From NCBI RefSeq assembly GCF_002278925.1, contig NZ_NCJH01000014.1, positions 1-64,000 on the forward strand: a stretch of 64,000 bases of DNA. The letters are read 5' to 3'. Of this stretch, positions 860-54,810 are shown piece after piece (the first letter of the stretch is position 1; each line of letters begins with the position of its first letter). The notes below the pieces were generated by a model that saw nothing but the letters and a program-made list of their open reading frames with translations, was not told the DNA's origin and made no database searches. The DNA comes from Polaromonas sp. 39-63-25 (GTDB taxonomy: Bacteria > Pseudomonadota > Gammaproteobacteria > Burkholderiales > Burkholderiaceae_C). The position numbers and the translations under genes were made by a program.

Positions 860-913
860 TTTTATGCCCTCAGCCATTGAGGGACGGGCGCAAGCAGCTA
901 TCGATTCGATAGC
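860..913 (-). repeat. dispersed palindromic element (copy 1)
   Basis: It lies directly after the GST stop codon. A GC-rich arm (gccctcagcc...gggacgggcgcaagca) is followed by GCTATCGA-T-TCGATAGC (897-913), a perfect 8-bp stem with a single-base centre. The same arm and stem recur at about a dozen places in the window. The stem differs from copies such as 54756-54772 (TGA/TCA) by paired changes, as expected if a hairpin is conserved. Confidence 0.75.
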
Positions 914-946
914 GAATTCAATAGCGTTTTCTGCGCCGGTGCGGTT

Positions 947-1021
947 TCAGCGAAAGCCGAAGTAAGACAGGATGAAGCCGATGATGACGATCAGGCCGAC
1001 GATGTAAATGATGGTGTTCAT
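947..1021 (-). CDS. 24-residue single-span membrane protein
   Basis: The peptide MNTIIYIVGLIVIIGFILSYF continues for three residues (GFR) to its stop. It is one hydrophobic helix with a short basic end, a format common in proteobacterial small-protein families that lack an assigned role. The ATG at 1021 is preceded by AGAGGAACC, a fair Shine-Dalgarno, which favours this start over a longer frame reaching back to 1135. The longer N-terminus is Arg/Gly-rich and does not look like protein. Function unknown; location presumably inner membrane. It is followed on the same strand by nothing close, and lies upstream of the GST on the opposite strand. Confidence 0.6.
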   Translation of the reverse strand: MNTIIYIVGLIVIIGFILSYFGFR

Positions 1022-1179
1022 GTGGTTCCTCTGGGAGTTTTCCGGGTGCACCGGGATGTACACCTTCTGTCCCAGATCATGAACGCGGCGGCGGCCTCCG
1101 GCTGTAGGCTGCCCCTGCCTGCGGCCGTCAGACAAGGGCTACAGCGCCCCGGCCGCGGCCCCAGTTCAACTTCGGCGCG

Positions 1180-1377
1180 TCAGGCCTTGTTTTTCATGGA
1201 ACAGGTGTTCCAGCCGAACAGGGCGTAAGGCGGGCACCAGCCGATGGCACCGGTGGCCAGCGGAACGACGCCTATCCAGCCCCACAGGCCGACCGTGCCG
1301 GTGGCGGCCAGCGCTATCAGGACCAGGCCGATAACGATGCGAAGGATGCGGTCGATGCCGCCGACGTTGGATTTCAT
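1180..1377 (-). CDS. DUF2892 (YgaP-type) membrane protein
   Basis: A 65-residue protein with the DUF2892 pattern: the N-terminal MKSNVGGIDRILRIVIGLVL amphipathic helix, a second hydrophobic stretch at about residues 30-48, and GWCPPYALFGWNTC near the end, including the family's conserved Cys pair (about residues 47 and 59). In YgaP the domain is the membrane anchor of a rhodanese; here it stands alone. The start at 1377 has the Shine-Dalgarno AAAGGAGCTCACC. The Crp/Fnr gene lies directly upstream on the same strand, with a 14-bp palindrome in the gap. That arrangement suggests this gene is the regulator's target, perhaps in sulfur or redox metabolism (inference). Confidence 0.85.
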   Translation of the reverse strand: MKSNVGGIDRILRIVIGLVLIALAATGTVGLWGWIGVVPLATGAIGWCPPYALFGWNTCSMKNKA

Positions 1378-1414
1378 GGTGAGCTCCTTTGAAAAAGGGG
1401 AAGGACTGATGACC

Positions 1415-1458
1415 GCATTAGGCGCCCTGGCACGGCCCGGGTCAGTGACCTGGGTCAC
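1415..1458 (-). promoter_or_regulatory. candidate Crp/Fnr-type operator and promoter of the DUF2892 gene
   Basis: GTGAC-CTGG-GTCAC (1445-1458) is a perfect palindrome with the 4-base spacer typical of Fnr/DNR-type half-sites. Read on the minus strand, a weak -10-like TAATGC sits at 1420-1415. The palindrome centre is then about 42-43 bp upstream of the predicted start of transcription, the usual position for class II activation. The adjacent Crp/Fnr gene product is the obvious candidate to bind it. The promoter call is inference. Confidence 0.45.
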
Positions 1459-2137: not shown

Positions 2138-2197
2138 GGGGCTGATGCTCGTTTCCGGGGTGGCCGGGGTGGTGGCAGGCTTTGCCGGCGTCACTAT

Positions 2198-2250
2198 GCT
2201 ACCAAATCAATAGCTGCTTGCTCCCGTCCCTGTTGGGCTGGAGGCCAAAA
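2198..2250 (+). repeat. dispersed palindromic element (copy 2)
   Basis: GCTA(9 bases)TAGC is followed by the arm tgcttgctcccgtccc...gggctggaggcc, the reverse orientation of copy 1. It fills the space between the stop codon of recJ (2255) and the start region of the Crp/Fnr gene, both on the minus strand. Confidence 0.75.
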
Positions 2251-2254: not shown

Positions 2255-3991
2255 TCAAATCTCCGCCGCCTCCACCAGAAAACGCACACGTTTGATGCCC
2301 TGCCATTCGTCGGCATCGAGCCGGAAGGCGAGTTTGACGCGCGCCGGCAGCGACTCGGTGTGGCCGAACCAGATGCCGTCCACCGGCTGGCCCTGGTGCT
2401 TGAGCTTGAGCGACAGGTGTTTTTCGCCGACCAGCCGCTGCGAGATGACCTCGACTTCCTCGCTGAAAGTCGGTGCCGCAAAACCCTGGCCCCAGACCTC
2501 TTTATGTAGCGTGTCCACCAGGTCGGCGCGCCGGTACTCGGGCGCCAGCGGACCGTCGGTGTCGATGCGGCGCAGCAAGGTGGCGGCGTCCAGCCACTCG
2601 TGCGCCACCAGTTGCAGCGCCTGCTCGAACACCTCGAAGTGTTCCTCGGCAATCGTGCAGCCGGCCGCCATCGCATGGCCGCCGAAACGCAGCAACACGC
2701 CGGGGTGGCGCTTGGCCACCAGGTCCAGCGCATCGCGCAGATGAAAGCCCGCAATCGAGCGGCCCGAACCCTTGAGCTCGTGTTCCTTGCCCGGCGCCTG
2801 GCTGGCGGCAAACACAAAGGTCGGGCGGTGCAGCTTGTCCTTGATGCGCGAGGCGACGATGCCGACCACACCTTCGTGGAAGTCCGGGTCGAAGATGGCG
2901 ATGGCCGGCGGCGGCCCATATTCCCCGTGAGCATCTTCGTCGATCATTGCATCGGCGGCCAACTGGGCCTGCTCGCGCATGCCGGCCTCGATGTCGCGCC
3001 GCTCGCGGTTGATGCCGTCCAGCGTTTTTGCCAGTTCGTCGGCGCGGCCCGCATCGTCGGTCAGCAGGCACTCGATGCCCAGCGTCATGTCGCTGAGCCG
3101 GCCGGCGGCGTTGATGCGCGGGCCGACCGCAAAACCAAAGTCGAAACTGGTCGCCACCGCCGCGACGCGACCGGCGGCGGTGAACAGCGCCGCCAGGCCG
3201 GCCGGCAGGGCGCCGCTGCGTATGCGCTTGAGGCCTTGCGCCACCAGGCGGCGGTTGTTGGCGTCGAGCCGGACGACGTCGGCGACGGTGCCGAGTGCCA
3301 CCAACGGCAGCAGGGTATCCAGCTTGGGCTGGTTGCCGGCATCAAACACGCCGCGCTTGCGTAATTCGGCGCGCAGGGCCAGCAACACATAAAACATCAC
3401 GCCGACACCGGCCATGGCCTTGCTCTCGAACGTGCAGCCGGGCTGGTTCGGGTTCACGATCACGTCGGCGTCGGGCAGCACGATGGCGCCGTCCCGGAGC
3501 GCTGGCAGGTGGTGATCGGTCACGAGTACCTGCATGCCCAGTTCACGCGCGCGCGCCACGCCCTCGATGCTGGCGATGCCGTTGTCCACCGTGACGAGAA
3601 GGTCAGCGCCGGTGGCCTTGACGCGCTCGGCAATCGTCGCGGTCAGCCCGTAACCGTCGACCACGCGGTCCGGCACGATGTAGCCGACCTGGGTCGCGCC
3701 CAGCAGGCGCAGGCCGCGCAGCGCGACGGCGCAGGCGGTGGCGCCGTCGCAGTCGTAGTCGGCCACCACGCATATCTTCTTGTTCGCGGCGATGGCGTCG
3801 GCCAGCAGCACGGCCGCCTCCGTCGTGCCTTTCATGGCCGACGGAGGCAGCAGCCGGGCCAGGCCGTCGTCGAGTTCATCGGCGGTGCGCACCCCGCGCG
3901 CGGCGTACAACTGCGCCAGCAAGGGGTGGACGCCGGCCTGCTGCAGCGCCCACACGCTGCGTGGCGGTGCTTCGCGTACTATTATTTTCAT
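2255..3991 (-). CDS. recJ: single-stranded-DNA-specific exonuclease RecJ
   Basis: A 578-residue DHH-family nuclease that degrades single-stranded DNA 5' to 3' in RecF-pathway recombination, mismatch repair and base excision. The metal-binding motifs are visible: DYDCDG at 78-83, the VDNGI segment at 135-139 and DHH at 159-161, followed by the DHHA1 domain (GSGRSIAGFHLRDAL, GGHAMAAGC) and a C-terminal OB-like region. Length is normal. The ATG at 3991 overlaps the stop of the upstream COG4255 gene by 4 bases (ATGA), so the two are probably co-translated. A copy of the dispersed palindromic element spans this junction and encodes the first residues. Confidence 0.96.
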   Translation of the reverse strand: MKIIVREAPPRSVWALQQAGVHPLLAQLYAARGVRTADELDDGLARLLPPSAMKGTTEAAVLLADAIAANKKICVVADYDCDGATACAVALRGLRLLGATQVGYIVPDRVVDGYGLTATIAERVKATGADLLVTVDNGIASIEGVARARELGMQVLVTDHHLPALRDGAIVLPDADVIVNPNQPGCTFESKAMAGVGVMFYVLLALRAELRKRGVFDAGNQPKLDTLLPLVALGTVADVVRLDANNRRLVAQGLKRIRSGALPAGLAALFTAAGRVAAVATSFDFGFAVGPRINAAGRLSDMTLGIECLLTDDAGRADELAKTLDGINRERRDIEAGMREQAQLAADAMIDEDAHGEYGPPPAIAIFDPDFHEGVVGIVASRIKDKLHRPTFVFAASQAPGKEHELKGSGRSIAGFHLRDALDLVAKRHPGVLLRFGGHAMAAGCTIAEEHFEVFEQALQLVAHEWLDAATLLRRIDTDGPLAPEYRRADLVDTLHKEVWGQGFAAPTFSEEVEVISQRLVGEKHLSLKLKHQGQPVDGIWFGHTESLPARVKLAFRLDADEWQGIKRVRFLVEAAEI

Positions 3992-4032
3992 AGCTGCTCA
4001 AGCAGAGCTGGAAAGGGCTGCTGGCCAAAAAG
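3979..4032 (+). repeat. dispersed palindromic element spanning the COG4255/recJ junction
   Basis: The element runs ctattattttcatagctgct...gctggaaagggctgctggccaaaaag, the same order as the 54756-54810 copy. It contains the recJ start codon, the overlapping stop codon of the upstream gene and that gene's last roughly 13 codons. The GC-rich arm is less well kept than in intergenic copies. Confidence 0.55.
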
Positions 4033-10035: not shown

Positions 10036-10089
10036 GCGCTTGCCGCCTGTGGTGTCGGCAAACGTATTTTTAAAAGCGATTCAGGGTCG

Positions 10090-10132
10090 CAGCCCTTATT
10101 GATAGGGCGTAGACAGCTATTGAATTTATAGC
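10090..10132 (-). repeat. dispersed palindromic element (copy 3)
   Basis: A cagccctta...gggcgtagaca arm is followed by GCTAT-TGAATTT-ATAGC (10116-10132). The 17-base hairpin core is identical to the one inside aceE at 49728-49744. Confidence 0.75.
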
Positions 10133-10150
10133 AAATGTTTTCTGTGGCTT

Positions 10151-15677: not shown

Positions 15678-16168
15678 CCGGTCTGGCGCCGCTGGTCAGC
15701 AGCCGGACCCGCGTGCTCATCCTCGGCAGTTTCCCCGGCGTGGCCTCGCTGGCGGCGCAGCAGTACTACGGCCACCCGCAAAACCATTTCTGGAAAATTT
15801 TGCAGGCCATTTGGCCATCCAGCCCAATATCATCGGGCGGAGACAGCTATCAAAATCGTAGCAAATGGCTATTGGACAGGCAACTGGGCGTCTGGGACGT
15901 GTATGCCTCCTGCGAACGCGAGGGCAGCCTGGACAGCCGCATCCGCCAGCCGGTGGTCAACGATTTCGCAGCAATGCTGGTCCAGTGCCCGGCGCTGGAA
16001 GCCATTGCTCACAATGGGGGCGAGAGTTTCAAACACGCGCGCCACACCGCGCTGCTGGGCTTGCCTGTCTACAAGTTACCGTCCACCAGCCCGGCGAACG
16101 CGTCCTGGTCGTTCGAGCGCAAGCTGGCGGCCTGGCGCGAAGTCTTCGAAAAGCACGGCATGGTGTGA
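15671..16168 (+). CDS. DNA-deoxyinosine glycosylase (UDG superfamily family 6)
   Basis: A 165-residue enzyme of the hypoxanthine-DNA glycosylase family. LILGSFPGVASL (about 16-27) followed by QQYYGHPQNHFW (about 30-41) is the diagnostic N-terminal region, HNGGESF (about 114-120) carries the catalytic-loop Asn, and LPSTSPAN is the C-terminal DNA-intercalation motif. It removes deaminated adenine (hypoxanthine) from DNA. Residues about 47-64 (PSSPISSGGDSYQNRSK) are encoded by a copy of the dispersed palindromic element (15811-15862) that keeps the frame open, so this stretch is probably an insertion relative to homologues. It overlaps tatD by 7 bases. Confidence 0.88.
   Translation: MLTGLAPLVSSRTRVLILGSFPGVASLAAQQYYGHPQNHFWKILQAIWPSSPISSGGDSYQNRSKWLLDRQLGVWDVYASCEREGSLDSRIRQPVVNDFAAMLVQCPALEAIAHNGGESFKHARHTALLGLPVYKLPSTSPANASWSFERKLAAWREVFEKHGMV
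15811..15862 (-). repeat. dispersed palindromic element inside the glycosylase gene
   Basis: ttggccatccagccc...cgggcggagaca is followed by GCTAT-CAAAATCG-TAGC, the orientation of copy 1. It lies in frame in the deoxyinosine glycosylase gene and adds no stop codon. Confidence 0.75.
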
Positions 16169-24739: not shown

Positions 24740-25681
24740 TTGTCCAGAAGTTCAGAGCAAAAAACACTTGCAGCCCAGGATCCACGGGCGCAGACAGCTC
24801 CTAAAAGCATAGCGACCGGGTTGCTGCTGGCGACGTTTGGCGCGATTGCCTTCAGCGGCAAGGCGATCATCGTCAAGCTCGCCTACCGCTACGGCGTCGA
24901 TGCGGTCACGCTCATCATGTACCGCATGCTGTTTGCGCTGCCAATCTTTGCCGTGATGGCCTGGTGGGCCAGCCGCGGCAAGGCGGCCCTGACCCGCAAG
25001 GACTGGCAGGGTGTGCTCTGGCTGGGCTTCACCGGTTACTACCTGGCGAGTTTTCTGGACTTTGCCGGGCTCGCCTACATCAGCGCCTCGCTCGAGCGGC
25101 TGATCCTCTACCTCAACCCCACGCTGGTCCTGCTACTGGGGCTGGTGCTGTATCGCAGGCGCATCAGCGCGGCGCAAATCATGGGCATGGCGATCAGCTA
25201 CAGCGGCGTGGTGCTGGTCTTCGGCCACGAGATCACCCTGCTGGGGCCGGAGGCCGCCTGGGGTGCGCTGCTGGTATTTCTCAGCGCCGTCAGTTATGCG
25301 ATTTACCTGGTCTACAGCGGCGAGATGGTCAAGCGCCTGGGCGCCTTGCGGCTGGTGGGACTGGCCACCACGGTGGCCTGCCTGTGCTGCATCCTGCAGT
25401 TTGTGCTGCTCAGGCCGCTCAGTGCTGCAGCTGTCGCGCCCGAGGTGATCTGGCTGTCGGTGCTCAATGCCACGCTGTGCACGGCGGCTCCGGTGCTGAT
25501 GGTGATGATGGCCATTGAACGCATAGGCGCCAGTATGGCCGCGCAGACCGGCATGGTTGGCCCGATGTCCACCATCCTGATGGGCGTGCTGATTCTCGGG
25601 GAGCCGTTCACTGCCTGGGTGGCGGCCGGCACGGTACTCGTCATCGCGGGTATTTTTGTGTTTTCCCGCGCGGGCAAGTAA
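24740..25681 (+). CDS. EamA/DMT-family transporter
   Basis: A ten-helix drug/metabolite transporter of about 313 residues with two EamA repeats (first from LLATFGAIAFSGKAIIVKLAY; second from AAWGALLVFLSAVSYAIYLVY). The substrate is unknown; relatives export amino acids, nucleosides or other metabolites. The start is uncertain: only TTG (24740) is available before the first helix, there is no good Shine-Dalgarno, and the first about 25 codons include a dispersed palindromic element (24771-24813). It begins 9 bases after the GGT-like gene's stop. Confidence 0.85.
   Translation: MSRSSEQKTLAAQDPRAQTAPKSIATGLLLATFGAIAFSGKAIIVKLAYRYGVDAVTLIMYRMLFALPIFAVMAWWASRGKAALTRKDWQGVLWLGFTGYYLASFLDFAGLAYISASLERLILYLNPTLVLLLGLVLYRRRISAAQIMGMAISYSGVVLVFGHEITLLGPEAAWGALLVFLSAVSYAIYLVYSGEMVKRLGALRLVGLATTVACLCCILQFVLLRPLSAAAVAPEVIWLSVLNATLCTAAPVLMVMMAIERIGASMAAQTGMVGPMSTILMGVLILGEPFTAWVAAGTVLVIAGIFVFSRAGK
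24771..24813 (-). repeat. dispersed palindromic element at the DMT transporter N-terminus
   Basis: cagcccaggatccacgggcgcagaca is followed by GCTC-CTAAAAGC-ATAGC, close to copy 3 in the arm. It lies inside the coding frame, upstream of the first membrane helix. Confidence 0.7.
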
Positions 25682-27903: not shown

Positions 27904-28698
27904 ATGGATTTAGGTATTGCAGGCAAATGGGCTTTGGTGTGCGGCGCAAGCAAGGGTCTGGGTCTGGGCTGTGCCCGGGCGCTGGTGCGCGAAGGCGTGA
28001 ACGTGCTGATCGTCGCGCGCGGCGCCGAGGTGCTGGAAGCGACCGCTGCAAAATTGATAGCTGACAGTGCCCGGCCGGCGGGCGCCAGCGTGCAGTTCGT
28101 GGCAGCGGACATCACGACCGTTGAAGGCCGCGCGGCGGTCTTCGCGGTGCGCAAGGACTTCGACATCGTGGTGACCAACGCCGGCGGTCCGCCCCCGGGC
28201 GACTTCCGCGACTGGGACCGCGACGCCTGGATCAAGGCGGTGGACGCCAACATGCTGACCCCGATCGAGCTGATCAAGGCCACGGTGGACGGCATGGCCG
28301 CGCGCGGCTTTGGCCGCATCATCAACATCACCTCCAGCTCGGTGAAGGCGCCGATTGACATTCTGGGATTGAGCAACGGCGCGCGCAGCGGGCTGACGGG
28401 TTTTGTTGCCGGCGTGGCACGCACCAAGCTGGCGGCCCAGGGTGTCACGATCAACAACCTGCTGCCTGGCAAGTTCGACACCGACCGCATCGCCACCACG
28501 GTGCGCGCCGCCGCTGAAAAATCCGGCAAGAGTGTCGAAGAGGTCCGCCGCGCGCAACAGGCCCAGATTCCCGCCGGTCGCTTCGGCACGCCGGACGAGT
28601 TCGGTGCGATCTGCGCCTTCCTGTGCAGCACGCATGCCGCTTACATGACGGGCCAGAACGTGCTGGCCGACGGCGGGGCTTACCCCGGGACTTACTGA
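27904..28698 (+). CDS. atypical SDR family oxidoreductase
   Basis: A 264-residue short-chain dehydrogenase/reductase fold. The cofactor loop GASKGLGLG (14-22) and the NAGG motif (92-95) are present, as are the serines of the active-site strand (144-146, NITSSSVK). However, the catalytic YxxxK is replaced: the matching positions are S157 and R161 in LGLSNGARSGL. Such members occur in FabG-like subfamilies whose reaction is unclear. Residues about 48-60 (KLIADSARPAG) overlap a sequence resembling the dispersed repeat family. Starts at ATG 27904; stands alone. Confidence 0.88.
   Translation: MDLGIAGKWALVCGASKGLGLGCARALVREGVNVLIVARGAEVLEATAAKLIADSARPAGASVQFVAADITTVEGRAAVFAVRKDFDIVVTNAGGPPPGDFRDWDRDAWIKAVDANMLTPIELIKATVDGMAARGFGRIINITSSSVKAPIDILGLSNGARSGLTGFVAGVARTKLAAQGVTINNLLPGKFDTDRIATTVRAAAEKSGKSVEEVRRAQQAQIPAGRFGTPDEFGAICAFLCSTHAAYMTGQNVLADGGAYPGTY
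28046..28085 (+). repeat. possible dispersed element in the SDR gene
   Basis: GCTgcaaaattgATAGC tgacagtgcccggccggcgggc resembles the hairpin end and arm of the family, in plus orientation. The match is weaker than in other copies, and the encoded residues fit a variable SDR loop, so this one is uncertain. Confidence 0.35.
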
Positions 28699-33333: not shown

Positions 33334-34149
33334 GTGGAGAACCCGCAGGTTTTTGACCTGAACTGGCTGCATGCCCAGCGCGCCGCCGCCGCTCAGCCAC
33401 CCTTGCGCCCGCGCGTTCCGCTGTGGTCCGGTGCATCGCTGATCGGAACGGTTGAGCCTGATTTTTTACATCAAATCGACCTCCAGCCCTTTCTGGACGG
33501 GCGCAAGCTGCTATTAAAAGAAGAGCGCGATGGGCAGCCGGGCTGGCACCTGCTGGGCGATGTGACGGCCGGCCTGAATCGCGTGGCGGCCGCCCTGCAC
33601 GCGGCCGGCCTTGCTGGCGCCTGGCGCGATGAGCAACTCGCGGTGACCGACCAGCATGGGGTTCGCCTCGGTACGGTGGAGCGCGCGGCGGTCCGGCCGC
33701 TGGGCATCACCACCCAGGCCGTGCATCTGGTGGGACAAGCCGTGGACGGCCGATTCTGGGTGCAGCAACGGGCCTTCGACAAGCCCAACGACCCCGGCCT
33801 CTGGGACACCCTGATGGGTGGCATGGTGTCCGCCGAAGACACACTGGCAACAGCGCTGGTGCGCGAGACCTGGGAGGAGGCCGGCCTGGAGCTGGACCAG
33901 TTGCGGGGCATGGTTCGCGGCGGCCATGTCGACATCCGCCGTCCCTGCGACGACGGCCGCGGCGCCGGCTACGTGGTCGAACGCATAGCCTGGTACCACT
34001 GCACCGTGCCGGACGGCGTCACCCCGGTGAACCAGGACGGCGAGGTCGCGTGTTTTGCGCTGATGGACGGCCACGCCATGCTGCAGAAGATGCGTGACGG
34101 GGAGTTCACGCTCGAGGCAGCATTGATCCAGGCCGCGCTGCTGGCGTAA
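33334..34149 (+). CDS. Nudix hydrolase with DUF4743-type N-terminal domain
   Basis: A 271-residue two-domain protein. The N-terminal about 120 residues look like the DUF4743 domain found with Nudix enzymes related to thiamine-diphosphate hydrolases (Tnr3-type), which remove damaged thiamine diphosphate. The Nudix box GGMVSAEDTLATALVRETWE-EAGLEL lies at about 162-187 with the G, E, REU and EE positions intact. The GTG start at 33334 follows the quinone reductase stop by six bases. Residues about 49-63 (DLQPFLDGRKLLLKE) are encoded by a likely copy of the dispersed palindromic element. Confidence 0.85.
   Translation: MENPQVFDLNWLHAQRAAAAQPPLRPRVPLWSGASLIGTVEPDFLHQIDLQPFLDGRKLLLKEERDGQPGWHLLGDVTAGLNRVAAALHAAGLAGAWRDEQLAVTDQHGVRLGTVERAAVRPLGITTQAVHLVGQAVDGRFWVQQRAFDKPNDPGLWDTLMGGMVSAEDTLATALVRETWEEAGLELDQLRGMVRGGHVDIRRPCDDGRGAGYVVERIAWYHCTVPDGVTPVNQDGEVACFALMDGHAMLQKMRDGEFTLEAALIQAALLA
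33474..33520 (-). repeat. likely dispersed element inside the Nudix gene
   Basis: gacctccagccctttctgga followed by cgggcgcaagctgctattaa matches the family's arm closely, with the same order as copy 1. The second half of the hairpin is degraded, so only the arm and GCTAT are clear. It is in frame. Confidence 0.6.
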
Positions 34150-34180
34150 GCTCCAAGGCCTGACGGAGCCTCTTCCCCTT

Positions 34181-37840: not shown

Positions 37841-40659
37841 CAGGCGTACTTCCTTTCTTCTCCTGCACCGAACAGGTTGCTGGTGCAGCGCCCGCAGATC
37901 GTCGGGTGTGCGGCGTCATGGCCCACGTCGTCCCGGTAATGCCAGCAGCGCTCACATTTAACGGCGGAACTGGCTTCGGTGTTGATGGATTGTGCGCTTC
38001 CAGCTATTAAATTTATAGCGGATGTGATGAAGACGAACTTCAGATCCTCGCCCAGGCTGGCCAGCAGTGCATGGTCGTCGGCGGTGACTTCGAGCGTCAC
38101 TTTGGCCTGCAGCGACGAGCCGACCTTGCCATCGGTGCGCAGAGCCTCGATGTCCTTGTTGACCGCATCACGCAGTTCGCGGATGCGGCTCCATTTGGAC
38201 AGCAGGGCCTCATCGGCCGCGGCCAGATCGGCATAGGTTTCCATGAAGATGGACTCCGAACTGCCGAAGACTTTCCAGGCTTCCTCGGCCGTGAAGCTCA
38301 GGAAAGGCGCCATCCAGCGCAGCATCGCATGCGTGATCTGGTGCAGCGCGGTCTGCGCGCTGCGCCTGGCCAGCGACTTCGGTGCCGTGGTGTACAGCCT
38401 GTCTTTCAGGATGTCGAGGTAGAAGGACCCCAGGTCTTCGCTGCAGTAGATCTGCAGTTTTGAGACCACCGGGTGGAACTCGTAGACCTCGTAGTGCGCC
38501 AGGATGTCGGCCTGCAGCTGCGCCGCGCGGCTCAGTGCGTACCGGTCGATTTCCAGCATCTGCTCGAACGGCACGGCGTCTTTGGCCGGGTCGAAGTCGC
38601 TGACATTGGCCAGCAGAAAACGCAGCGTGTTGCGGATGCGTCGGTAGGCGTCCACCACACGCGCCAGGATCTTGTCGTCAATGGCCAGGTCGCCCGAGTA
38701 GTCGGTCGATGCGCACCACAGGCGGATGATTTCGGCGCCCAGCTTGCCCGACACTTCCTGCGGTGCCACGACGTTGCCTTCGCTCTTGCTCATCTTGCGG
38801 CCCTTGCCGTCCACCGTGAAGCCGTGTGTCAGCAGGCCCTTGTAGGGCGCGTGGTCGTACATTGCGCACGAGGTGAGCAGCGACGAGTGGAACCAGCCGC
38901 GGTGCTGGTCGTGGCCTTCGAGGTACAGATCGGCTGGCCAGGCGGACTGGTCGGCGTGGCTGCGCTTGAGCACATGAAAATGCGTGGTGCCCGAGTCGAA
39001 CCAGACGTCCAGGATGTCGGTGCTCTTGATGTAGTCGGGTGCGTCGGCACCCAGGATGGACTCGGCGCTGGCCTTGCTCCAGGCCTCGATGCCGCCGGCC
39101 TCCACCATGGCGGCGGCCTGGTCCATGATTTCCATGGTGCGCGGGTGCAACTCGCCGGTGGCGGTGTGGATGAAAAACGGCAGCGGCACGCCCCAGTTGC
39201 GCTGGCGGCTGATGCACCAGTCGGGCCGGCCGGCAATCATGTCGTGCAGGCGGGTCTTGCCGTTTTCCGGGTAGAAGCTGGTTTCCTCGATCGCGGCCAG
39301 CGCCAGCTGGCGCAGCGTGCGCGGCGCCTTGTCCCTGGTGAACACGCCTTCACCCTCGTCCATGCGCACAAACCACTGGGCGGCGGCGCGGTAGATCACC
39401 GGCGTCTTGTGGCGCCAGCAATGCGGGTAGCTGTGCACGATGTCATGCGTGGCAAACAGGCGGCCGGCGTCGCGCAGGGCCTCGATCACCAGCGGTGCGG
39501 CTTTCCAGATGTTGAGGCCGCCGAACAGCGGCAGCTCGTCGACGTAACGGCCGTTGCCCTGCACCGGGTTCAGGATGTCGTCGTAGGCAATGCCGTTGGC
39601 CACGCAGGAGTTGAAGTCTTCCACGCCGTAGGCGGGCGAGGAATGCACGATACCCGTGCCGTCGTCGGCGGTCGCGTAGTCGGCCAGAAAGACCGGGCTC
39701 AGGCGCCGGTAACCAGCATCCACGTCGTACAGCGGATGTTTGAAATTGATCAGCGCCAGGTGTTTGCCGGCCGTGGTGGCCAGCACCGTGCCGGTGAGCT
39801 GGTAACGCTCCAGACACTTGTCCACCAGCGAGGCGGCCAGCAGCAGGATGCCGCGCTCGGTATCGACCAGTGCGTAGTCCAGATCGGGGTTCAGGTTCAG
39901 CGCCTGGTTGGCGGGAATAGTCCACGCGGTGGTCGTCCAGATCACGGCATAGGCGTCCTTGGACAGGCTCTTCAGGCCGAAAGCGGCAGCCAGCTTGTCG
40001 GGCTGGTCGCACTGGAAGCCGACGTCCAGCGTCTGCGATTTTTTGTCCGCGTATTCGATCTCGAACTCGGCCAGCGAGGAGCCGCAGTCAAAACACCAGT
40101 AGACGGGCTTGAGGCCGCGGTAGACAAAACCGCGTTCCATGATGCGTTTGAGCGCGCGGATCTCGTCGGCTTCGTTGCCGGGGTTCATGGTCAGATAGGG
40201 GTTGGCCCATTCACCCAGCACGCCCAGGCGCTTGAAGTCCTCTTTCTGCTGTGCGATCTGCTCGGTGGCAAAAGCGCGGCTCTTGGCCTGCACGTCGTCT
40301 CTTGAAAGATTGCGGCCATGCAGCTTTTCGATGGCGTTTTCGATCGGCAGGCCGTGGCAGTCCCAGCCCGGCACATACACGGCGTCCAGCCCCTTGAGCT
40401 GGCGCGCCTTGACGATCATGTCTTTCAGGATCTTGTTGGCCGCATGGCCGATGTGGATCTGACCGTTGGCGTACGGCGGGCCGTCGTGCAGCACAAACTT
40501 CGGTTTGCCGGCGCGCACGTCGCGCAGCTTTTTGTAGATGCCCTTGTCGTCCCACTCCTTGACCCAGCCGGCTTCGCGTTTGGGCAGGTCGCCGCGCATG
40601 GGGAAAGGGGTGTCGGGCAGGTTCAGGGTGCTGCGGTAATCGGTTTTGTTGTCGGACAT
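37840..40659 (-). CDS. ileS: isoleucyl-tRNA synthetase
   Basis: A 939-residue class I synthetase that charges tRNA-Ile. HIGH is at 69-72, KMSKS at 622-626 and the C-terminal zinc-binding cysteines are in KCERCWHY and TICGRCTSN. The editing domain follows the usual order. Residues about 881-890 are encoded by a copy of the dispersed palindromic element (37991-38019) just before the zinc domain, in a linker that varies between species. Start ATG at 40659 is standard. Followed by lspA with one-base overlap. Confidence 0.98.
37991..38019 (-). repeat. dispersed palindromic element inside ileS
   Basis: tgcgcttcca is followed by GCTAT-TAAATTT-ATAGC (38003-38019). Only the hairpin and the near part of the arm are kept. 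It lies in frame in the linker before the C-terminal zinc domain of IleS. Confidence 0.7.
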
Positions 40660-41802: not shown

Positions 41803-41817
41803 GCTGCCAATTATCGT

Positions 41818-41875
41818 TTTAATAGCGCCTCAGGTCGGCTGGATGGGGGCTGGAGGCCTGAAAAGGGGGATGGAC
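41818..41875 (+). repeat. dispersed palindromic element upstream of ribF
   Basis: tttaatagcgcctcaggtcg followed by gctggatgggggctggaggcctgaaaag matches the arm in plus orientation; the hairpin part is degraded. It lies in the divergent spacer between ribF and the HNH gene. Confidence 0.55.
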
Positions 41876-44901: not shown

Positions 44902-46017
44902 TCAGGCAAACACGCCGGCGGTGTCCTGCATCCTGCTTGACACTTCACCCAGGTGATGCAGGGTGTCGCCAAAACTCATTTCCATCTGCGTTAGCCGCTT
45001 GAAATAGTGGCTGACAATGTATTCGTCGGTCACGCCGATGCCGCCATGCAGCTGCACAGCCTGCTGGCCGACAAAACGCATGGAGACGCCAAGCTGGTAC
45101 TTGGCTCTCGCCATGGCGGCACGGCGTTCTGCGGCCGGCGCGTTGAGCTTGAGCGAGGCGTAATAACTCATGGAGCGGGCCAGCTCCAGCTGCATCTTCA
45201 TGTCCGCCACGCGGTGGCGCAGCGCCTGGAAGCTGCTGATCACCACGCCGAACTGCTTGCGCGTGTTCATGTATTCGACGGTGATGGCCAGGGTCTTGTC
45301 CATCACGCCGACGGCTTCGGCGCAGGTGGCGGCGATGCCGATGTCGGTGGCATGCTCCAGCGCCGCCAGGCCGTCCAGCGTGATCAGCGTGGCCGGCGCG
45401 TCCTTGAGCACCACGTCAGCCGCGCGGCCGCCGTCCTGCGTGCCGTAGCCGCGGGTGCTGACGCCCTTGGCCGTGCGCTCGACCAGGAACAGCGCGATCT
45501 TGCCCTTGACCTGCGCCGGGACAATGAAGGCATCGGCCTGGTCACCGGCCGGTACTATGTTTTTGGTAGCTGTCAGCGTCCATCCGGCGCCGGCTGCAAC
45601 CGCTTTTGCTTCACAAACATCGAGCCGGTAGCGGGCGGCGCGCTCCTGTGAGGCGAGCACCACCAGCGCTTCGCCGCCGGCGATTTTCGGCAGCCAGGCG
45701 GCCTTGATATCGGCGGGGGCGTAGCCGGACAACACGGCGCCAGCGATCAGGGCCTGGGCCAGCGGCTCGAGCACGATGCCGCGACCGAGTTCCTCCATCA
45801 CGACCATGCCTTCGACCGGGCCCATGCCGAGTCCGCCGTCGTCCTCGGGAATGTAGAGGCCGGTCAGGCCGAGTTCGGCCAGCTGGCCGTAAGCTTCGCG
45901 CGAGAAACCGCCGGCCTTGGCGATGCCGCGGCGGCGCTCGAAGTCATAAGCCTTGGCTACCCATTTGCCCACTGCATCGCGCAGTTGTTCCTGGTCGTCG
46001 CTGAAATCAAAATCCAT
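44902..46017 (-). CDS. acyl-CoA dehydrogenase
   Basis: A 371-residue flavoprotein that makes a trans-2 double bond in an acyl-CoA, passing electrons to ETF. N-terminal MDFDFSDDQEQLRDAVGKWV and the later GIGVTDEYIVSHYFKRL are family marks; the region around residues 215-245 (DIGIAATCAEAVGVMDKTL) leads to the catalytic position. The start at 46017 follows AGGAGAATAGC. A weak match to the dispersed element lies at residues about 145-155. It follows a second acyl-CoA dehydrogenase gene; the two probably form a heteromeric or paired enzyme as in many steroid, terpenoid or long-chain acid pathways (inference). Confidence 0.9.
   Translation of the reverse strand: MDFDFSDDQEQLRDAVGKWVAKAYDFERRRGIAKAGGFSREAYGQLAELGLTGLYIPEDDGGLGMGPVEGMVVMEELGRGIVLEPLAQALIAGAVLSGYAPADIKAAWLPKIAGGEALVVLASQERAARYRLDVCEAKAVAAGAGWTLTATKNIVPAGDQADAFIVPAQVKGKIALFLVERTAKGVSTRGYGTQDGGRAADVVLKDAPATLITLDGLAALEHATDIGIAATCAEAVGVMDKTLAITVEYMNTRKQFGVVISSFQALRHRVADMKMQLELARSMSYYASLKLNAPAAERRAAMARAKYQLGVSMRFVGQQAVQLHGGIGVTDEYIVSHYFKRLTQMEMSFGDTLHHLGEVSSRMQDTAGVFA
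45552..45583 (+). repeat. weak match to the dispersed element in an acyl-CoA dehydrogenase gene
   Basis: ctatgtttttggTAGCTGTC followed by agcgtccatcc resembles the hairpin and arm. The encoded segment (GWTLTATKNIVPA) still fits the family's normal sequence, so this may be chance. Confidence 0.3.
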
Positions 46018-46036
46018 TGCTATTCTCCTGTTGGTG

Positions 46037-46090
46037 GTCATCCCGGGCTCGACCCGGGATCCATGGATTGCGGGTCAAGCCCGCAATGAC
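46037..46090. repeat. 54-bp GTCAT...ATGAC palindromic repeat
   Basis: The ends GTCAT and ATGAC are inverted repeats. Inside are two hairpins, ATCCCGGG...CCCGGGAT and ATTGCGGG...CCCGCAAT. It fills most of the space between the two acyl-CoA dehydrogenase genes. Half of the same element is at 10151-10179. Confidence 0.8.
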
Positions 46091-49274: not shown

Positions 49275-51971
49275 TCAGCCCGCCTTCAACTGATGCAGCG
49301 CCGCCTGGACGATGCTTGATGCATCGACCCCGAAAAATCCGCGCAGCGCCGCACGGGTGTCGCTGCGGCCGAAACCGTCCGTGCCCAAGGTCAGGTAGCT
49401 GCGGCCGGCCGGCAGGAAGGCGCGGATGCTTTCGGGCACGGCGCGTACATAGTCGGTGGCGGCGATGATGGGGCCTTCGCTGTCCTTGAGTTGTTCCGCA
49501 ATGAAGGGCGCAGACGCGGGTTCGCCCTGGAGCGCGCGCTGCTGGCAGGCCGCGCCGTCACGCGCGAGTTCGCTCCAGCTGGTCACGCTGTACACCGTCA
49601 CGTCCAGACCCTGCTCGGCCAGCTGCTGCGCCGCCTTGATCACCTCGGTCAAAATCGCGCCGGAGCCCAGCAGCGTCAATTTTTCAAGCGTTTGTTGGCT
49701 CTGGCCCTTGTCTGGTGAGCGCGAGTAGCTATTGAATTTATAGCATCCGCGAACAATACCGGCTTCGGACCCGGGCCGCAAATCGGGTTGCGCATAGTTT
49801 TCGTTCATCAGCGTGACGTAATAAAAAACGTCCTGCTGCTCCACCATCATTTCCTGCATGCCGCGGTCGATGATGACGGCCAGCTCGCAGGCAAAGGCCG
49901 GGTCGTAGGCCTTGCAGTTGGGAATGGTCGCGGCCACCAGATGGCTGGAGCCGTCCTGGTGCTGCAGGCCTTCGCCGCCCAGCGTGGTGCGGCCCGAGGT
50001 GGCGCCCAGCAGAAAGCCGCGGGCGCGCTGGTCGGCAGCGGCCCAGATCTGGTCGCCCACGCGCTGGAAACCGAACATCGAGTAGTAGATGTAGAAGGGC
50101 AGCATCGCCAGTCCGTGCACGCTGTAGCTGGTGGCGGCGGCCGTCCAGCTGGCAAGTGCACCGGCTTCGCTGATGCCTTCCTCGAGAATCTGGCCGTCGA
50201 GCGCTTCGCGGTAACTGAGCACCGAGCCGATGTCTTCCGGCGCGTACTTCTGGCCCACACTCGAATAAATGCCGACCTGCTTGAACAGGTTCGCCATGCC
50301 GAAGGTGCGCGCTTCGTCAGCAACGATGGGCACGATGCGTGGGCCGAGTGACGCGTCTTTCAGCAGGCCGCCCAGCATGCGCACAAAGGCCATGGTGGTG
50401 CTCATCTCCTTGCCGTCGGCGGCCAGTGCAAAGTTCGCATACACGGGCAGGGCGGGGACAGGGACGGTGTCGGCGCTGGTTTCGCGTTTGGGCAGATAAC
50501 CGCCCAGCGCGGCGCGCTTGGCGTGCAGGTACTGCATTTCCGGGCTGTCTGCGGCCGGCTTGTAAAACGCCAGTTGCTTCGCCTGTTCGTCGCTGAGCGG
50601 CAGGTTGAAGCGGTTGCGGAATTCGAGCAGATCGCTTTCGTCGAACTTCTTCTGTGAATGCGTGGTCATCTTGCCCTGGCCGGCGCTGCCCATGCCGTAA
50701 CCTTTTTTGGTGTGCGCCAGGATCACCGTCGGCTGGCCGGTGTGGTTGGCGGCGGCGGCATAGGCCGCGTGGATTTTCACGAGGTCGTGGCCGCCGCGCT
50801 TGAGCCGGTCGATCTGCTCGTCCGTCATGCCCTGCGCCAGTCGTGCGAGCTCTTCGTTCTGGCCGAAGAAGTTGTCGCGGTTGAAGCGGCCGTCTTTCGC
50901 TGCAAAGGTCTGCATCTGGCCGTCCACCGTGTGCGCAAAGGCCTGCGTCAGCGCGCCGGTGATGTCGCGCGCAAACAGGCCGTCCCAGTCGCTGCCCCAC
51001 ACCAGCTTGATGACATTCCAGCCGGCGCCGGCAAACAGCTTCTCCAGCTCGTCGATGATGCGGCCGTTGCCGCGCACCGGGCCGTCCAGGCGCTGCAGGT
51101 TGCAGTTGACAACCCAGACCAGGTTGTCCAGGCCTTCGCGTGCGGCCAGCGTCAGCGCGCTCATCGACTCGGGCTCGTCCATCTCGCCGTCGCCGAACAC
51201 GCCCCACACCTTTCGGCCGGTGCAGTCGAGCAGGCGTCGGTGCGTGAGGTAGTGCATGAAACGCGCGTGGTAAATCGAACTGATCGGACCGATCCCCATG
51301 GAGCCGGTCGGAAACTGCCAGAAGTCGGGCATCAGGTAGGGGTGCGGGTAGCTCGACAGTCCCTGTGCGCCTTGGGTCGCCGCCGAGAGTTCCTGGCGGT
51401 AAAACCCCAGATCTTTTTCGTTCAGCCGGCTTTCGAGGTAGGCGCGGGCATACACGCCGGGCGCGCTGTGCGGCTGGAAAAAAACCAGGTCGCCGCGATG
51501 CTGGTTAACACCGTCGATTTGACCGAGCCCTTCGCGTGCATGAAAGAAATGGTTGAAGCCGGTTTCAAACAGATCGGCCGCGCTGGCATAACTGGCAATG
51601 TGGCCGCCGAGCTCGCTCGATCCACCCGACTCGGCCTGGTTGGCGCGCACCACCATGGCCAGCGCGTTCCAGCGCATCAACGAGGCCAGCCGTTCTTCCA
51701 TCGCCAGGTCGCCCGGAAAAACCGGCTGTTCGTTGACACCGACGGTGTTGACATAAGGCGTGGCGAGTTCCGGCTTCCAGCTCACGCGCTGCTCGCGCGC
51801 CAGCCGCGCCAGTTCATCGAGCAGGTAACGTGCGCGGGCCTGGCCTTGCGTCGCTGCCAGTGCCATGAAAGCCTCGCGCCATTCGGCGGTTTCCTGGGGA
51901 TCGGTGTCGGGTATGGGCATGGCAGCCTGCTGCAGGGCGTGGAGGGCATGGAGTGGGGCGGGCGCATTCAT
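49275..51971 (-). CDS. aceE: pyruvate dehydrogenase E1 component (homodimeric AceE type)
   Basis: An 898-residue thiamine-diphosphate enzyme that decarboxylates pyruvate in the pyruvate dehydrogenase complex. The cofactor motif is GDGEMDEP at 260-267 followed by NCNLQRLDGPVRGNGRI. A dispersed palindromic element (49695-49744) encodes residues about 743-759 (KFNSYSRSPDKGQSQ), just before KLTLLGSGAIL, in a loop that is shorter in relatives I know. The start at 51971 is typical. No aceF or lpd gene follows within the window on this strand; purN lies opposite its 3' end. The Lrp-type regulator is divergent from it. Confidence 0.96.
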   Translation of the reverse strand: MNAPAPLHALHALQQAAMPIPDTDPQETAEWREAFMALAATQGQARARYLLDELARLAREQRVSWKPELATPYVNTVGVNEQPVFPGDLAMEERLASLMRWNALAMVVRANQAESGGSSELGGHIASYASAADLFETGFNHFFHAREGLGQIDGVNQHRGDLVFFQPHSAPGVYARAYLESRLNEKDLGFYRQELSAATQGAQGLSSYPHPYLMPDFWQFPTGSMGIGPISSIYHARFMHYLTHRRLLDCTGRKVWGVFGDGEMDEPESMSALTLAAREGLDNLVWVVNCNLQRLDGPVRGNGRIIDELEKLFAGAGWNVIKLVWGSDWDGLFARDITGALTQAFAHTVDGQMQTFAAKDGRFNRDNFFGQNEELARLAQGMTDEQIDRLKRGGHDLVKIHAAYAAAANHTGQPTVILAHTKKGYGMGSAGQGKMTTHSQKKFDESDLLEFRNRFNLPLSDEQAKQLAFYKPAADSPEMQYLHAKRAALGGYLPKRETSADTVPVPALPVYANFALAADGKEMSTTMAFVRMLGGLLKDASLGPRIVPIVADEARTFGMANLFKQVGIYSSVGQKYAPEDIGSVLSYREALDGQILEEGISEAGALASWTAAATSYSVHGLAMLPFYIYYSMFGFQRVGDQIWAAADQRARGFLLGATSGRTTLGGEGLQHQDGSSHLVAATIPNCKAYDPAFACELAVIIDRGMQEMMVEQQDVFYYVTLMNENYAQPDLRPGSEAGIVRGCYKFNSYSRSPDKGQSQQTLEKLTLLGSGAILTEVIKAAQQLAEQGLDVTVYSVTSWSELARDGAACQQRALQGEPASAPFIAEQLKDSEGPIIAATDYVRAVPESIRAFLPAGRSYLTLGTDGFGRSDTRAALRGFFGVDASSIVQAALHQLKAG
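49695..49744 (-). repeat. dispersed palindromic element inside aceE
   Basis: ggctctggcccttgtctggtgagcgcgagta is followed by GCTAT-TGAATTT-ATAGC (49728-49744). The hairpin core is identical to that at 10116-10132. It is in frame and encodes a Ser/Lys-rich loop. Confidence 0.8.
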
Positions 51972-52541: not shown

Positions 52542-52549
52542 AGAGGTCC

Positions 52550-54385
52550 CTAGCGGACGGGTGCCTGCTCTTCGCCGGTGAGGGCTGGATGAGAGGTTTC
52601 GAGCGCATTGATTTTTGCCAGGAGATCCTCCCGGCGTGTGCTGTCCTCCGGCGGAAGGCTCGCAGGTTCGCCGGCAGCATCGACAAACTGGACGTAGTGC
52701 TTCGGGCCTGAGGTCATTCGCCGCAGGCGGGTTTTGAGGCTGTCGATGATTTGCTGTCCGGTCTGGGCCCCCGGCGTGCCGTGCCAGATGGCGATGTGCA
52801 GGTTGAACGCGTTGGGGTCGTCCAGTTTTCCGGACAGGCGTATGCAGTCGGCCAGGATCTTGGTGGCGATTTCGGCGACGGCCTCGCGATTGACCGGGCC
52901 TTCGATGAGCATCAGAAACAGGTTCTCGTCGTAACGGACCACTGTGTCCATGTCGCGCGCGGCCCGGCGCAGGATTTCGCCGATGCGCGAAAGCGCGGTG
53001 CTGCGCTTGTGGTCGCTGAGTTCGTCAGGGCTGGGGACCTGGTCGAGCCAGCTCAGCATCAACAGGCCGCATTCCGAGTGTTTGCGGCGCGCGCGCAGCA
53101 GCATTTGCGCCAGCCGGTTGTCGATCACCCGGGGCAGCATCAGCCCGCTGGCCGGGTCATAAGTGGCCAGGGCGGCACCGCGATGGGTGGAAAACAGGGC
53201 AGCCCGGCTGCGCCATGCCAGCACAAAAAAGATCCACAGCAGCCCGACCATGGCCGACAACACGCCGGCCGCCTGTGCCTCCTCGATGTTCTGCACCCAG
53301 CCCGCGTTGTAGGACAGCCGCGCCAGCGCTGCCAGTGCGATGGGTGCCGTGCCCAGCAGGAGCAGCAGGTTCCATGCCTGCCCGCGCAGGGACATCCACA
53401 CCAGGCTGCCCAGGATTGCCACCGTGGCCAGCGCCAGCCACAGGTTGCGAAGGTCGCGCGGGATGAAGTCCCGATCGATCGCCGCCAGGCCGGCCACGAG
53501 AAGGCTGCCCGCTGCGACGGTGGCCAGCAGCCGGTAAATGCGCGGGTGGCCGCTTTTGGCGTAGCTGGCCTGGGCGCAGAACCATGCCCCGGCGGCCATG
53601 CTCAGCCCGGCCGAGACCCAGCCCATGACCTGGTTGAGGTGTGCGCTGCCTGGCCACATGCGCCAGCCGCCGTAGTCGATCAGCACCAGCTGCGTGAACA
53701 TCAGCGTCACCACCACGGCGCCAAACCACAAAAACACCCGGTTGCGTGCCATGGAGAACGCGGCAAGGCTCAGCGCTGCCAGCACGCTGAACATGCCCCA
53801 CATCAGGCCAATCACCACGCCCACGCGGGAGGCGCCGTCAACGTATTCGACGGGAGACAGCAGCATGGGTCGCCCCGTGAGCGCCCGGTTGTTCTCGAAG
53901 CGCAGGTAGTAGGTCTGCACGCGGTCACTGCGTGTCTGCAATTCAAAGCTGGGCACGCGGGTGCGCAATGACCAGTTGGCCGGCGCAATCGCCTCGCCGG
54001 CCGCCTGTACGAGCCAGTCGCCCCGGGGGCCGCGCGAGAAAAGGCTGGCCTTGACGAGCGCCTGGCCCGGCAAACGGATGAACCAGGTTTGAAGCGACTC
54101 GGTGGCCGGTAGTGAGAAGGTGGCCCAGACGTCCTGCTTGCCCGAAGTGGGAAGAACTGTGTTGTCGGTGTAGGGCTGCAATCCCCAGGGCCCGGCGGCA
54201 GTGAAGGCGTCGGGCGAGGCAATCGTGCCCTTTGGCACGGCCACCCACTGCAGCGGTTCGGCCAGCGTGATGGTGACGCTGTCGCTGTAAAGGCGGTCAA
54301 AGTCCTGCGTGTGGCCTGCCCGCAGCACCAGGCCAAGCAGCACCAGAAAAAAAATGCGCAAGTTGGCCTTTCTGTACATCCGCAT
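52550..54385 (-). CDS. 7TM-DISM receptor with degenerate GGDEF domain
   Basis: A 611-residue membrane signalling protein. A signal peptide (about 1-26) and a periplasmic DISMED2-type jelly roll (about 30-190) are followed by seven membrane helices (about 195-390) and a cytosolic domain (about 415-590) with the layout of GGDEF diguanylate cyclases. The GG(D/E)EF position reads RYDEN (484-488, in DTVVRYDENLFLML), so the active-site loop is lost and c-di-GMP synthesis is unlikely. It may bind GTP or c-di-GMP, or signal by protein contact. The Lrp gene converges on it with 8 bases between stops. The start is uncertain by two residues. Confidence 0.85.
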   Translation of the reverse strand: MRMYRKANLRIFFLVLLGLVLRAGHTQDFDRLYSDSVTITLAEPLQWVAVPKGTIASPDAFTAAGPWGLQPYTDNTVLPTSGKQDVWATFSLPATESLQTWFIRLPGQALVKASLFSRGPRGDWLVQAAGEAIAPANWSLRTRVPSFELQTRSDRVQTYYLRFENNRALTGRPMLLSPVEYVDGASRVGVVIGLMWGMFSVLAALSLAAFSMARNRVFLWFGAVVVTLMFTQLVLIDYGGWRMWPGSAHLNQVMGWVSAGLSMAAGAWFCAQASYAKSGHPRIYRLLATVAAGSLLVAGLAAIDRDFIPRDLRNLWLALATVAILGSLVWMSLRGQAWNLLLLLGTAPIALAALARLSYNAGWVQNIEEAQAAGVLSAMVGLLWIFFVLAWRSRAALFSTHRGAALATYDPASGLMLPRVIDNRLAQMLLRARRKHSECGLLMLSWLDQVPSPDELSDHKRSTALSRIGEILRRAARDMDTVVRYDENLFLMLIEGPVNREAVAEIATKILADCIRLSGKLDDPNAFNLHIAIWHGTPGAQTGQQIIDSLKTRLRRMTSGPKHYVQFVDAAGEPASLPPEDSTRREDLLAKINALETSHPALTGEEQAPVR

Positions 54386-54492
54386 AGCTTATTGCATAAC
54401 CTGTTGCTTAAGCGCGTGCTGTCCGGCAGCGGATCGCCCGGCCATCACGATGTCACAAGAATTGACCTCTATCCGTCTTCCTTCAACAACGG

Positions 54493-54738
54493 ATGCCACA
54501 TGCCTTACCCCGGCCTCACCGGAGCCCCGACCCGAACAAGCGGACGCGCAAGCCGCTGAACAATGGCGTGCCGACCTTCCTCTTCTTCATGATCGAAAAC
54601 GTGGACCTGGTCGATGCCGCGTACATCATCGCGGGCAATGACAACAAGCTCCCGTTTTCGGGCCGCCGCGAGCCGAACCAGGCTGACGACTACGCGCTGA
54701 TCCTGCTGGAAGTCGGCGATTTCCCCAAGGCGCAGTGA
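54493..54738 (+). CDS. small unrecognised frame, possibly a decayed gene
   Basis: An 81-residue frame whose later part (GVPTFLFFMIENVDLVDAAY, then IIAGNDNKLPFSGRREPNQ) has balanced protein-like composition and good codon use. The piece just upstream in another frame (RIDLYPSSFNNGCHMPYPGL, about 54455-54515) also looks protein-like, so the two may be one gene broken by a frameshift near 54515-54530. I do not recognise the product. It is followed by a dispersed element and then prfC on the other strand. Confidence 0.35.
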   Translation: MPHALPRPHRSPDPNKRTRKPLNNGVPTFLFFMIENVDLVDAAYIIAGNDNKLPFSGRREPNQADDYALILLEVGDFPKAQ

Positions 54739-54755
54739 GGGGGCAGGGTGCAAAT

Positions 54756-54810
54756 GCTATTGAATCAATAGCTGCTTGCGCCCGTCCCTTCTGGGTTGGA
54801 GGCCGAAAAG
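54756..54810 (+). repeat. dispersed palindromic element, full-length reference copy
   Basis: GCTATTGA-A-TCAATAGC (54756-54772), a perfect 8-bp stem, then tgcttgcgcccgtccc followed by ttctgggttggaggccgaaaag. This is the best intergenic example of both hairpin and arm. It ends at the stop codon of prfC, which lies on the minus strand. Confidence 0.85.

Follow-up and report, generated by a model that had tools for sequence, protein, structure and literature searches.

DNA uptake sequences (DUS) of the Neisseriaceae are present in hundreds to thousands of copies, differ by single-nucleotide dialects between related species and spread in linkage with recombination, according to the available sections of PMC3630211 and PMC2397512. 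The uptake signal sequences (USS) of the Pasteurellaceae consist of a core with AT-tracts and are rigid and slightly bent by prediction (available sections of PMC7811141). USS occur also in genes, they have been suggested to originate from sequence already there, without insertion, and their even spacing has been reported and also doubted; the share of copies in genes is 35% for DUS and 65% for USS (available sections of PMC1939737). Another dispersed repeat, BRE, is ~90 bp long with mean 69% GC in Bordetella, is sometimes tandem, and is dispersed in Polaromonas and other Comamonadaceae with some copies in coding sequence (available sections of Hot et al. 2011, PMC3110155). Here we describe an element of ~70 bp that lies both between and inside genes of Polaromonas sp. 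39-63-25 (genome G000, 4.83 Mb), found in positions 1-64000 of contig C48, the stretch that we call the window. The element behaves as sequence respelled in place without insertion. By analogy with Neisseria and Haemophilus uptake sequences, it may be a DNA signal that a trans-acting factor reads and that is kept up at its sites, a reading that we hold about equally likely to be right or wrong.

A preliminary description of the window had noticed a dispersed palindrome of ~55 bp, and the repeat proved to be real but longer. The motif measures ~68-70 bp and consists of a 55-bp core (GCTAY..ATAGCTGCTTGCGC..GGGCTGGAGGCC) followed, beyond the arm reported before, by helically phased A/T tracts spaced one helical turn; its information is 56.9 bits across 70 positions. 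The A/T tracts had a period of 10.5-11 bp in 4/4 profiled genomes, in profiles without control. The exact string ATAGCTGCTTGCGC occurred 49 times genome-wide and 0 times in the reversed sequence, which is independent proof of excess. A weight matrix was trained on matches in a sample of 864 kb (the window, C31 1-400 kb and C52 140-540 kb) and found there 158 sites above 10 bits, while the sample read in reverse had none above 6 bits; it means ~880 sites per genome by extrapolation, or one per ~5-6 kb. Other dialects are under-counted by this matrix because it is tuned to the dialect of G000. The scores were bimodal, with a main peak at 45-75 bits and a valley at 10-30 bits, and 0 control scores lay above -5. 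Spacer copies peaked at ~60-70 bits and in-gene copies at ~40-60 bits.

A covariance model was built on nine window copies and then run unfiltered over the window; it had at least 150 matches in the genome. All nine training copies (at 54754, 2196, 861, 10080, 15810, 49692, 3976, 33474 and 24766) were rescored at E <= 1e-8, which is no independent proof because the same copies trained the model. The four other listed copies, outside the training set, were weaker: 37990 (E 0.004), 45552 (0.028), 41810 (0.054) and 28043 (1.5). The 13 listed copies are thus nine strong ones used in training, three weak ones and one below significance yet conserved in two relatives (Table 1). The window had no match in Rfam, and BLAST of the 55-mer against plasmids and phages found nothing. 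As the preliminary description had supposed, literature searches found no described equivalent in the family; the nearest is BRE, of different length and GC content. The element is set apart from BRE by description, with its 55-bp core (~70 bp in total), a core GC content mostly of 45-65%, and the closest two sites of C31 and C52 439 bp apart.

Rickettsia palindromic elements (RPEs) lie in frame in housekeeping genes, as this element does, and they lengthen their protein. An invasion by insertion of this kind had been proposed for the repeat. As a rival explanation it would be a non-autonomous mobile hairpin, similar to repetitive extragenic palindromes (REPs), RPEs or miniature inverted-repeat transposable elements (MITEs), transposing into genes and spacers through a REP-associated tyrosine transposase (RAYT) or another transposase; high copy number, stem-loop potential and the 3' place in spacers agree with it. 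We compared relatives of ~80-92% nucleotide identity at orthologous sites. None of 17 element-free intragenic pairs (11 sites) was 55-70 nt shorter; the length difference was 0 in nine pairs, and -3, -6, -9, -15, -21, -21, +27 and +48 in the others. Eight intergenic pairs counted as absent also gave no clean empty site (-107 twice at one site, -29, -21, +11, +14, +44 and +294); one of them, C31:235209, was miscalled, as the relative there does carry the element.

The same was examined in ileS with 85 sources (80 loci, the own genome and four relatives), from which 73 genes were used and 12 without parsable frame were dropped. The site is exactly 36 codons long in 69/73 genes, including all 22 element carriers. 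The element was present at the same codons in 22/73 genes (7 to 48 bits) and absent from 51 (-24 to -61 bits), with no intermediates, and carriers include Polaromonas, Rhodoferax, Acidovorax, Simplicispira and Diaphorobacter. In a quick gene tree there were 10 state changes, nine of them forced by well-supported branches. Among named proteins, the best matches of the own IleRS come from Polaromonas. A similar peptide is already encoded by some non-carriers, for example AIDLVAG in L190, for which the element uses other codons. As a separate observation, many genera have a second conserved element-like site (TTGTTATCTTTTTGATAGC...) ahead of ileS. It was seen in L182-L252, which belong to the 80 loci, mostly 230-520 nt from the locus start and ~1.0-1.4 kb upstream of the gene, and it scored 13-18 bits in three Variovorax loci.

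Insertion is unsupported because no clean empty site was seen in intragenic or intergenic pairs and the length of ileS was kept in 69/73 genes, and respelling without insertion is shown. The element differs in this from RPEs and MITEs, since the length is unchanged. It shares with REPs and bacterial interspersed mosaic elements (BIMEs) the short size, hairpin capability, hundreds of copies, places near stop codons and usually one Y1_Tnp gene per genome; it differs from them in having more than one third of copies in predicted genes and no insertion seen, and Y1_Tnp neither is flanked by it nor tracks it. Y1_Tnp was detected in 37/38 Polaromonas genomes, element-poor ones included, and this genome has just one Y1_Tnp gene, around which no element lies for 1.5 kb; in L039, the 3.3 kb around that gene, the best element match had 7.5 bits (E 0.32). 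RAYT as mobiliser, which the preliminary description had suggested, is rejected on this lack of flanking copies and of tracking with element count. Across the family, Y1_Tnp was found in 53/61 element-positive and 94/139 other genomes, a weak and unexplained association that counts for the mobile hairpin, as do the copies that relative G224 has in a strong dialect peculiar to it, where the flanks are unalignable and insertion is possible. Equal-length ileS, missing empty sites, the Y1_Tnp distribution, shuffle-level covariation and dialect change at retained orthologous sites (below) stand against it, so that a mobile hairpin is largely refuted for the tested sites and is very unlikely as the general explanation.

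The stems had been said to vary by paired changes, pointing to selection on the folded form. Over 125 copies the covariation score was 0.137 vs 0.127 in shuffles, a value that 48/500 shuffles reached; pairs with a change in each partner numbered 5, fewer than the 6.7 of shuffles. The paired changes quoted held for the innermost stem pair only. Outer stem pairs are nearly invariant, and inner pairs are broken in ~30-52% of the copies. The letters are conserved more than the pairing, and selection on the folded form found no support. Stem covariance is rejected as evidence of a folded RNA by this shuffle-level result. One orthologous spacer of relative G230 retains a palindrome with different inner letters, which points toward structure. 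Among the three signs that the preliminary description had named as decisive, the excess over control was found, while covariation and empty sites were not.

At these places, orthologues without the element already have peptides from which the motif could almost be written. For each position, frame and strand of element-free orthologues, we calculated the best element score that synonymous codons allow. Among element-free pairs of equal length (6 sites), the true site ranked in the top 1% of windows for this peptide capacity in 9/9. For the 8 pairs of unequal length, the best of 7-97 windows was taken and ranked in the top 0.02-4.4%. The control, with shifted frames or the other strand at the same places, had median 0.53 (369 values) and only 1.9% in the top 1%. 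In 51 element-free IleRS proteins the median was top 1.9%, and 34 were in the top 5%. Either the element grows where peptides permit, or those genes are ex-carriers; either way it is in-place recoding. Third-position conservation was 0.72 at informative element positions vs 0.67 in flanks (28/47 pairs higher, P 0.02), a weak test because it is conditional on element presence.

Equal-length replacement with many clustered differences, at sites already partly similar and with bimodal scores, would also agree with another mechanism, by which existing elements supply short single-stranded patches that replace host DNA where microhomology exists, writing a whole copy at once and leaving the length unchanged, that is, short-patch illegitimate recombination or ectopic gene conversion. 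A literature search on this mechanism by name found nothing. Homogenisation is expected from it, whereas the variable letters stay site-specific while position 41 switches (see below); single-step events were not observed, and stepwise gain was likewise not seen. We regard patch overwriting as unlikely.

Related genomes write the same sites in other dialects, with consistent differences in all stretches sampled. At position 41, 92% of own copies have G, and C is found in 93-94% of the copies of relatives G235 and G223, whose dialect further has A at position 44 in place of T and A at positions 45-46. At orthologous sites with G41 here, C was found in 22/24 (G235) and 14/14 (G223), with P 2e-14 and 2e-11 against the rate of third-position G-to-C change in the same genes, which was 0.17-0.19. 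When 30 dialect changes in genes were each applied singly to the own codon, 21 were synonymous and nine were not. At uninformative positions identity was 0.61-0.79 between orthologues vs 0.29-0.32 for mismatched sites, with 0.61 vs 0.32 and 0.67 vs 0.29 among the comparisons. The copies are therefore vertical and not rewritten whole, because orthologues match about twice as well at these positions.

Other relatives lack the sites. G230 had no element at 8/8 orthologous sites, and the own-dialect matrix found 0 sites across 127 kb of it, with 25 core-pattern matches genome-wide vs 13 in the control. G224 had none at 10/10 orthologous sites; elsewhere it bears copies in a distinct, strong dialect, whose A/T tracts are in ~11 bp phase out to ~+100. 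Core 14-mer counts (up to one mismatch) across 38 Polaromonas genomes ranged from 436 down to control level; G213, G211, G231, G000 and G235 are element-rich, and G229, G232, G222, G212 and G230 element-poor. The G224 dialect, collected from L155-L158, L162-L166 and L257-L266, was also seen to be longer: its 23 copies show four or more A/T tracts, one every ~11 bp, and give 100.8 bits in the 160 columns profiled (uncorrected for small sample).

Of the 158 sites, 61 were in predicted genes and 97 between genes in a sample that is ~88% coding; the in-gene count is approximate because a purpose-written gene finder was used to place genes outside the window. Copies were found in aceE, ileS and the genes of UDG-superfamily, NUDIX, acyl-CoA dehydrogenase and short-chain dehydrogenase proteins, which confirms that housekeeping genes such as aceE, ileS and others hold the element in frame without being destroyed. 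In the genes inspected (aceE, ileS) it has a linker position. Among the covariance-model copies, 82/125 were in spacers beside stop codons in either orientation: 30 of the 82 in convergent spacers, of which the sample has 63 of at least 50 bp, and 12 in 93 divergent spacers. Sites are more even than random, with coefficients of variation of spacing of 0.73 and 0.78 vs a uniform random mean of 0.98; when placement was limited to real spacers and random gene positions, 3-29/1000 simulations were equally even. A replication-strand signal, similar to FtsK-orienting polar sequences (KOPS) or Chi, was rejected, as the orientation was 41:17 in C31 and 27:31 in C52 with the same sign of GC skew in both.

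From these characteristics we propose that the element could be a ~70-bp double-stranded DNA recognition signal, made of a sequence-specific core and A/T tracts, that a trans-acting reader would recognise. Its hundreds of chromosomal copies would be made and kept by letter replacement of existing sequence, and it would arise where tolerated: in spacers by stop codons, and in protein linkers with a peptide that comes close to encoding it. The reader is perhaps the DNA-uptake machinery, and the maintaining force could be biased uptake with recombination, as molecular drive or as selection for kin DNA. Working like an uptake sequence is proposed because of the in-place origin, permissive in-gene places, even spacing, dialects, absence from some species, and the core with A/T tracts. 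Like DUS, the element is present in hundreds of copies or more, in genes and spacers, in permissive regions and with dialects; like USS, it has a core with AT-tracts, even spacing, places in genes and an apparent in-place origin. The in-gene share of 61/158 can be compared with the values for DUS and USS given above.

The element would be unusual among such signals. DUS have 10-12 bp, and the element ~70 bp with phased A/T tracts; its putative role in uptake is argued by analogy. DUS and USS have a short core of 9-12 bp with many single-mismatch forms, which the element does not show with its ~70 positions, 57 bits and 9/167 intermediate sites. It is far longer than USS, has a stem-forming core and fewer near-misses, and we see no likeness between this core and that of USS. 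Although we infer an uptake role, we do not claim membership in DUS or USS: so long a motif with so few near-misses is atypical, and none of the receptors follows the element in its distribution.

Uptake machinery seems to be available, since ComEC was found in 190/200 family genomes and a ComP_DUS-type pilin in 36/38 Polaromonas genomes, with two matches to such minor pilins in G000. Competence genes were rejected as discriminators of element carriers, being near-ubiquitous; the ComP_DUS pilin family occurs with or without the element. As an observation apart, the strong copy G000:C49:9202-9256 falls in the ComEC match of the genome itself (C49:8814-9719). The element was detected in 61/200 family genomes at E <= 1e-4, and 300 order-level genomes gave five positives, all from the same family; these counts are lower bounds because the model has one dialect and 19-28 candidates were scored per genome.

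Several points weigh against an uptake signal. To our knowledge, a motif of ~70 bp is several times longer than any known DUS or USS. Near-miss sites are scarce, with 9/167 between 10 and 30 bits, and DUS and USS are reported to build up gradually with many mismatched forms (available sections of PMC1939737). ComEC is present in 131/139 element-negative family genomes, the ComP_DUS pilin occurs in element-poor Polaromonas such as G230, G212, G222, G229 and G232, and G201 (83% complete, 119 pattern matches) had no ComP_DUS match; none of the genes tested (ComEC, ComP_DUS pilin, Y1_Tnp) tracks the element. The dialect evidence counts as one switch and not two, because one dialect and many sites are common to G235 and G223. 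Among the element-free IleRS, 17/51, including several outgroup-like genera, were outside the top 5%, and an older element may have left the compatible peptides of element-free Comamonadaceae behind as relics. Retention was 33/50 intragenic pairs vs 27, 21 or 9 expected under neutral decay, in a simulation whose outcome depends on the rates assumed. The bias to regions conserved among relatives was clear in a 300-kb stretch of C31 (45/51 vs 33.5 expected), absent in another stretch, in C52 (15/37 vs 15.3), and not significant in the window (11/11 vs 9.6). Finally, 17 IMG/VR contigs had pattern matches.

On the viral side, the contigs with the element are L299, L302, L313 and 14 other IMG/VR loci (L297-L313), many with GCGCTT..AAGCGC arms. 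Similar copies were seen on three viral contigs, and it may be that certain phages exploit the signal or mimic it.

The main rival is an intracellular DNA-binding protein, for example a nucleoid organiser, a gyrase or integration host factor (IHF)-like protein or a replication or repair factor, that reads the motif under direct selection at each site, with dialects following the protein. Even spacing, bimodal scores, phased A/T tracts, dialects at orthologous sites, and places near stop codons and in convergent spacers would all match such a reader. The absence of sites in 127 kb of G230 and the dialect switch at most orthologous sites would be hard for weak per-site selection; no consistent orientation bias with GC skew was seen, and no candidate protein was identified, none having been looked for. 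We judge an intracellular reader rather unlikely, and an uptake-like signal read in trans stays the preferred explanation. In its wider form, the proposal is that the Comamonadaceae own a further, independently evolved uptake-sequence system next to those of the Neisseriaceae and Pasteurellaceae. Its signal of ~70 to 100 bp would be the longest of its kind that we know, with a core and a bent A/T tail in helical phase; it would have dialects by species and respelled linkers in many proteins. This is possible with the balance slightly against it. Literature searches on the Comamonadaceae, of incomplete coverage, found no uptake sequence described.

If the uptake reading is true, it would be directed exchange of self-marked DNA in a large environmental bacterial family, for which we found no report, and the dialects would predict gene-exchange partners. 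Even without uptake, coding sequence of many loci has had a motif of ~57 bits forced on it, and between species of one genus this motif has switched in place, which is a natural experiment of sequence-level drive vs protein constraint. With many species with and without the element in one genus, the reader gene should be findable by comparison.

Table 1. Copies of the element in the window, with E values of the covariance model.
Feature	Position	Strand	Place	E value	In training set	Remarks
element copy	861..915	-	intergenic, 3' of stop of gene 177-848 (+)	5.6e-14	yes	common to G203 and G231
element copy	2196..2250	+	intergenic, adjoins stop of recJ-like gene 2255-3955 (-)	4.3e-14	yes	RecJ domains
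element copy	3976..4030	+	at or just upstream of recJ-like 5' end	9.5e-11	yes	common to G203 and G231
element copy	10080..10134	-	intergenic, past gene 8824-10035 (+)	5.7e-13	yes	
element copy	15810..15864	-	in UDG-superfamily gene 15671-16168 (+)	3e-12	yes	Pfam UDG
element copy	24766..24815	-	just upstream of or at 5' end of EamA gene 24821-25681 (+)	9.9e-9	yes	Pfam EamA
weak copy	28043..28097	+	in short-chain dehydrogenase gene 27271-28698 (+)	1.5		not significant
element copy	33474..33528	-	in NUDIX gene 33334-34149 (+)	4e-10	yes	
element copy	37967..38021	-	in ileS 37840-40659 (-), linker between anticodon-binding domain and zinc finger	0.004		26 bits
weak/partial copy	41810..41862	+	intergenic	0.054		18 bits here, 23 in G203, 3 in G231
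weak copy	45552..45606	+	in acyl-CoA dehydrogenase gene 44902-46017 (-)	0.028		Pfam
element copy	49692..49746	-	in aceE (pyruvate dehydrogenase E1) 49275-51971 (-)	5.6e-11	yes	aligned with 26 relatives
element copy	54754..54808	+	intergenic, adjoins stop of RF3-like gene 54812-56428 (-)	1.2e-14	yes	RF3 domains

Among the 150 genome matches scored, the copy adjoining the RF3-like gene had the top model score. The copy in aceE falls between the middle domain (end aa 729) and the C-terminal domain (start aa 761) of Pfam. At the locus of the recJ-like 5' end G224 is without the motif and 294 nt longer, and its UDG-superfamily orthologue is without the element and 9 nt shorter. Orthologues of the NUDIX and acyl-CoA dehydrogenase genes in G224 and G230 have the same length without the element. 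The copy in the short-chain dehydrogenase gene has 15 bits here and 23 and 26 bits in the close relatives G203 and G231, and is absent at unchanged length in G230 and G224.

The window also holds other repeats. A GC-rich dispersed repeat of CCCTCGGGGGGCAG type, separate from the element, is present at 34180-34240, 60297-60357, 60419-60479 and 37300-37331, and it may correspond to BRE (Hot et al. 2011). A long inverted repeat pair lies at 10325-10660 and 25727-26061, with arms of 52-158 nt that are 85-94% complementary. The short dispersed repeat GGCTTCGACAGGCTCAGCCCGAACG occurs in both orientations at 12741-12765, 26162-26186 and 10196-10222. Another dispersed repeat, CTGT..GTCATCCCGG..CCGGGATCCATG, was found at 10142-10179 and 46028-46065, and its first copy adjoins an element copy.

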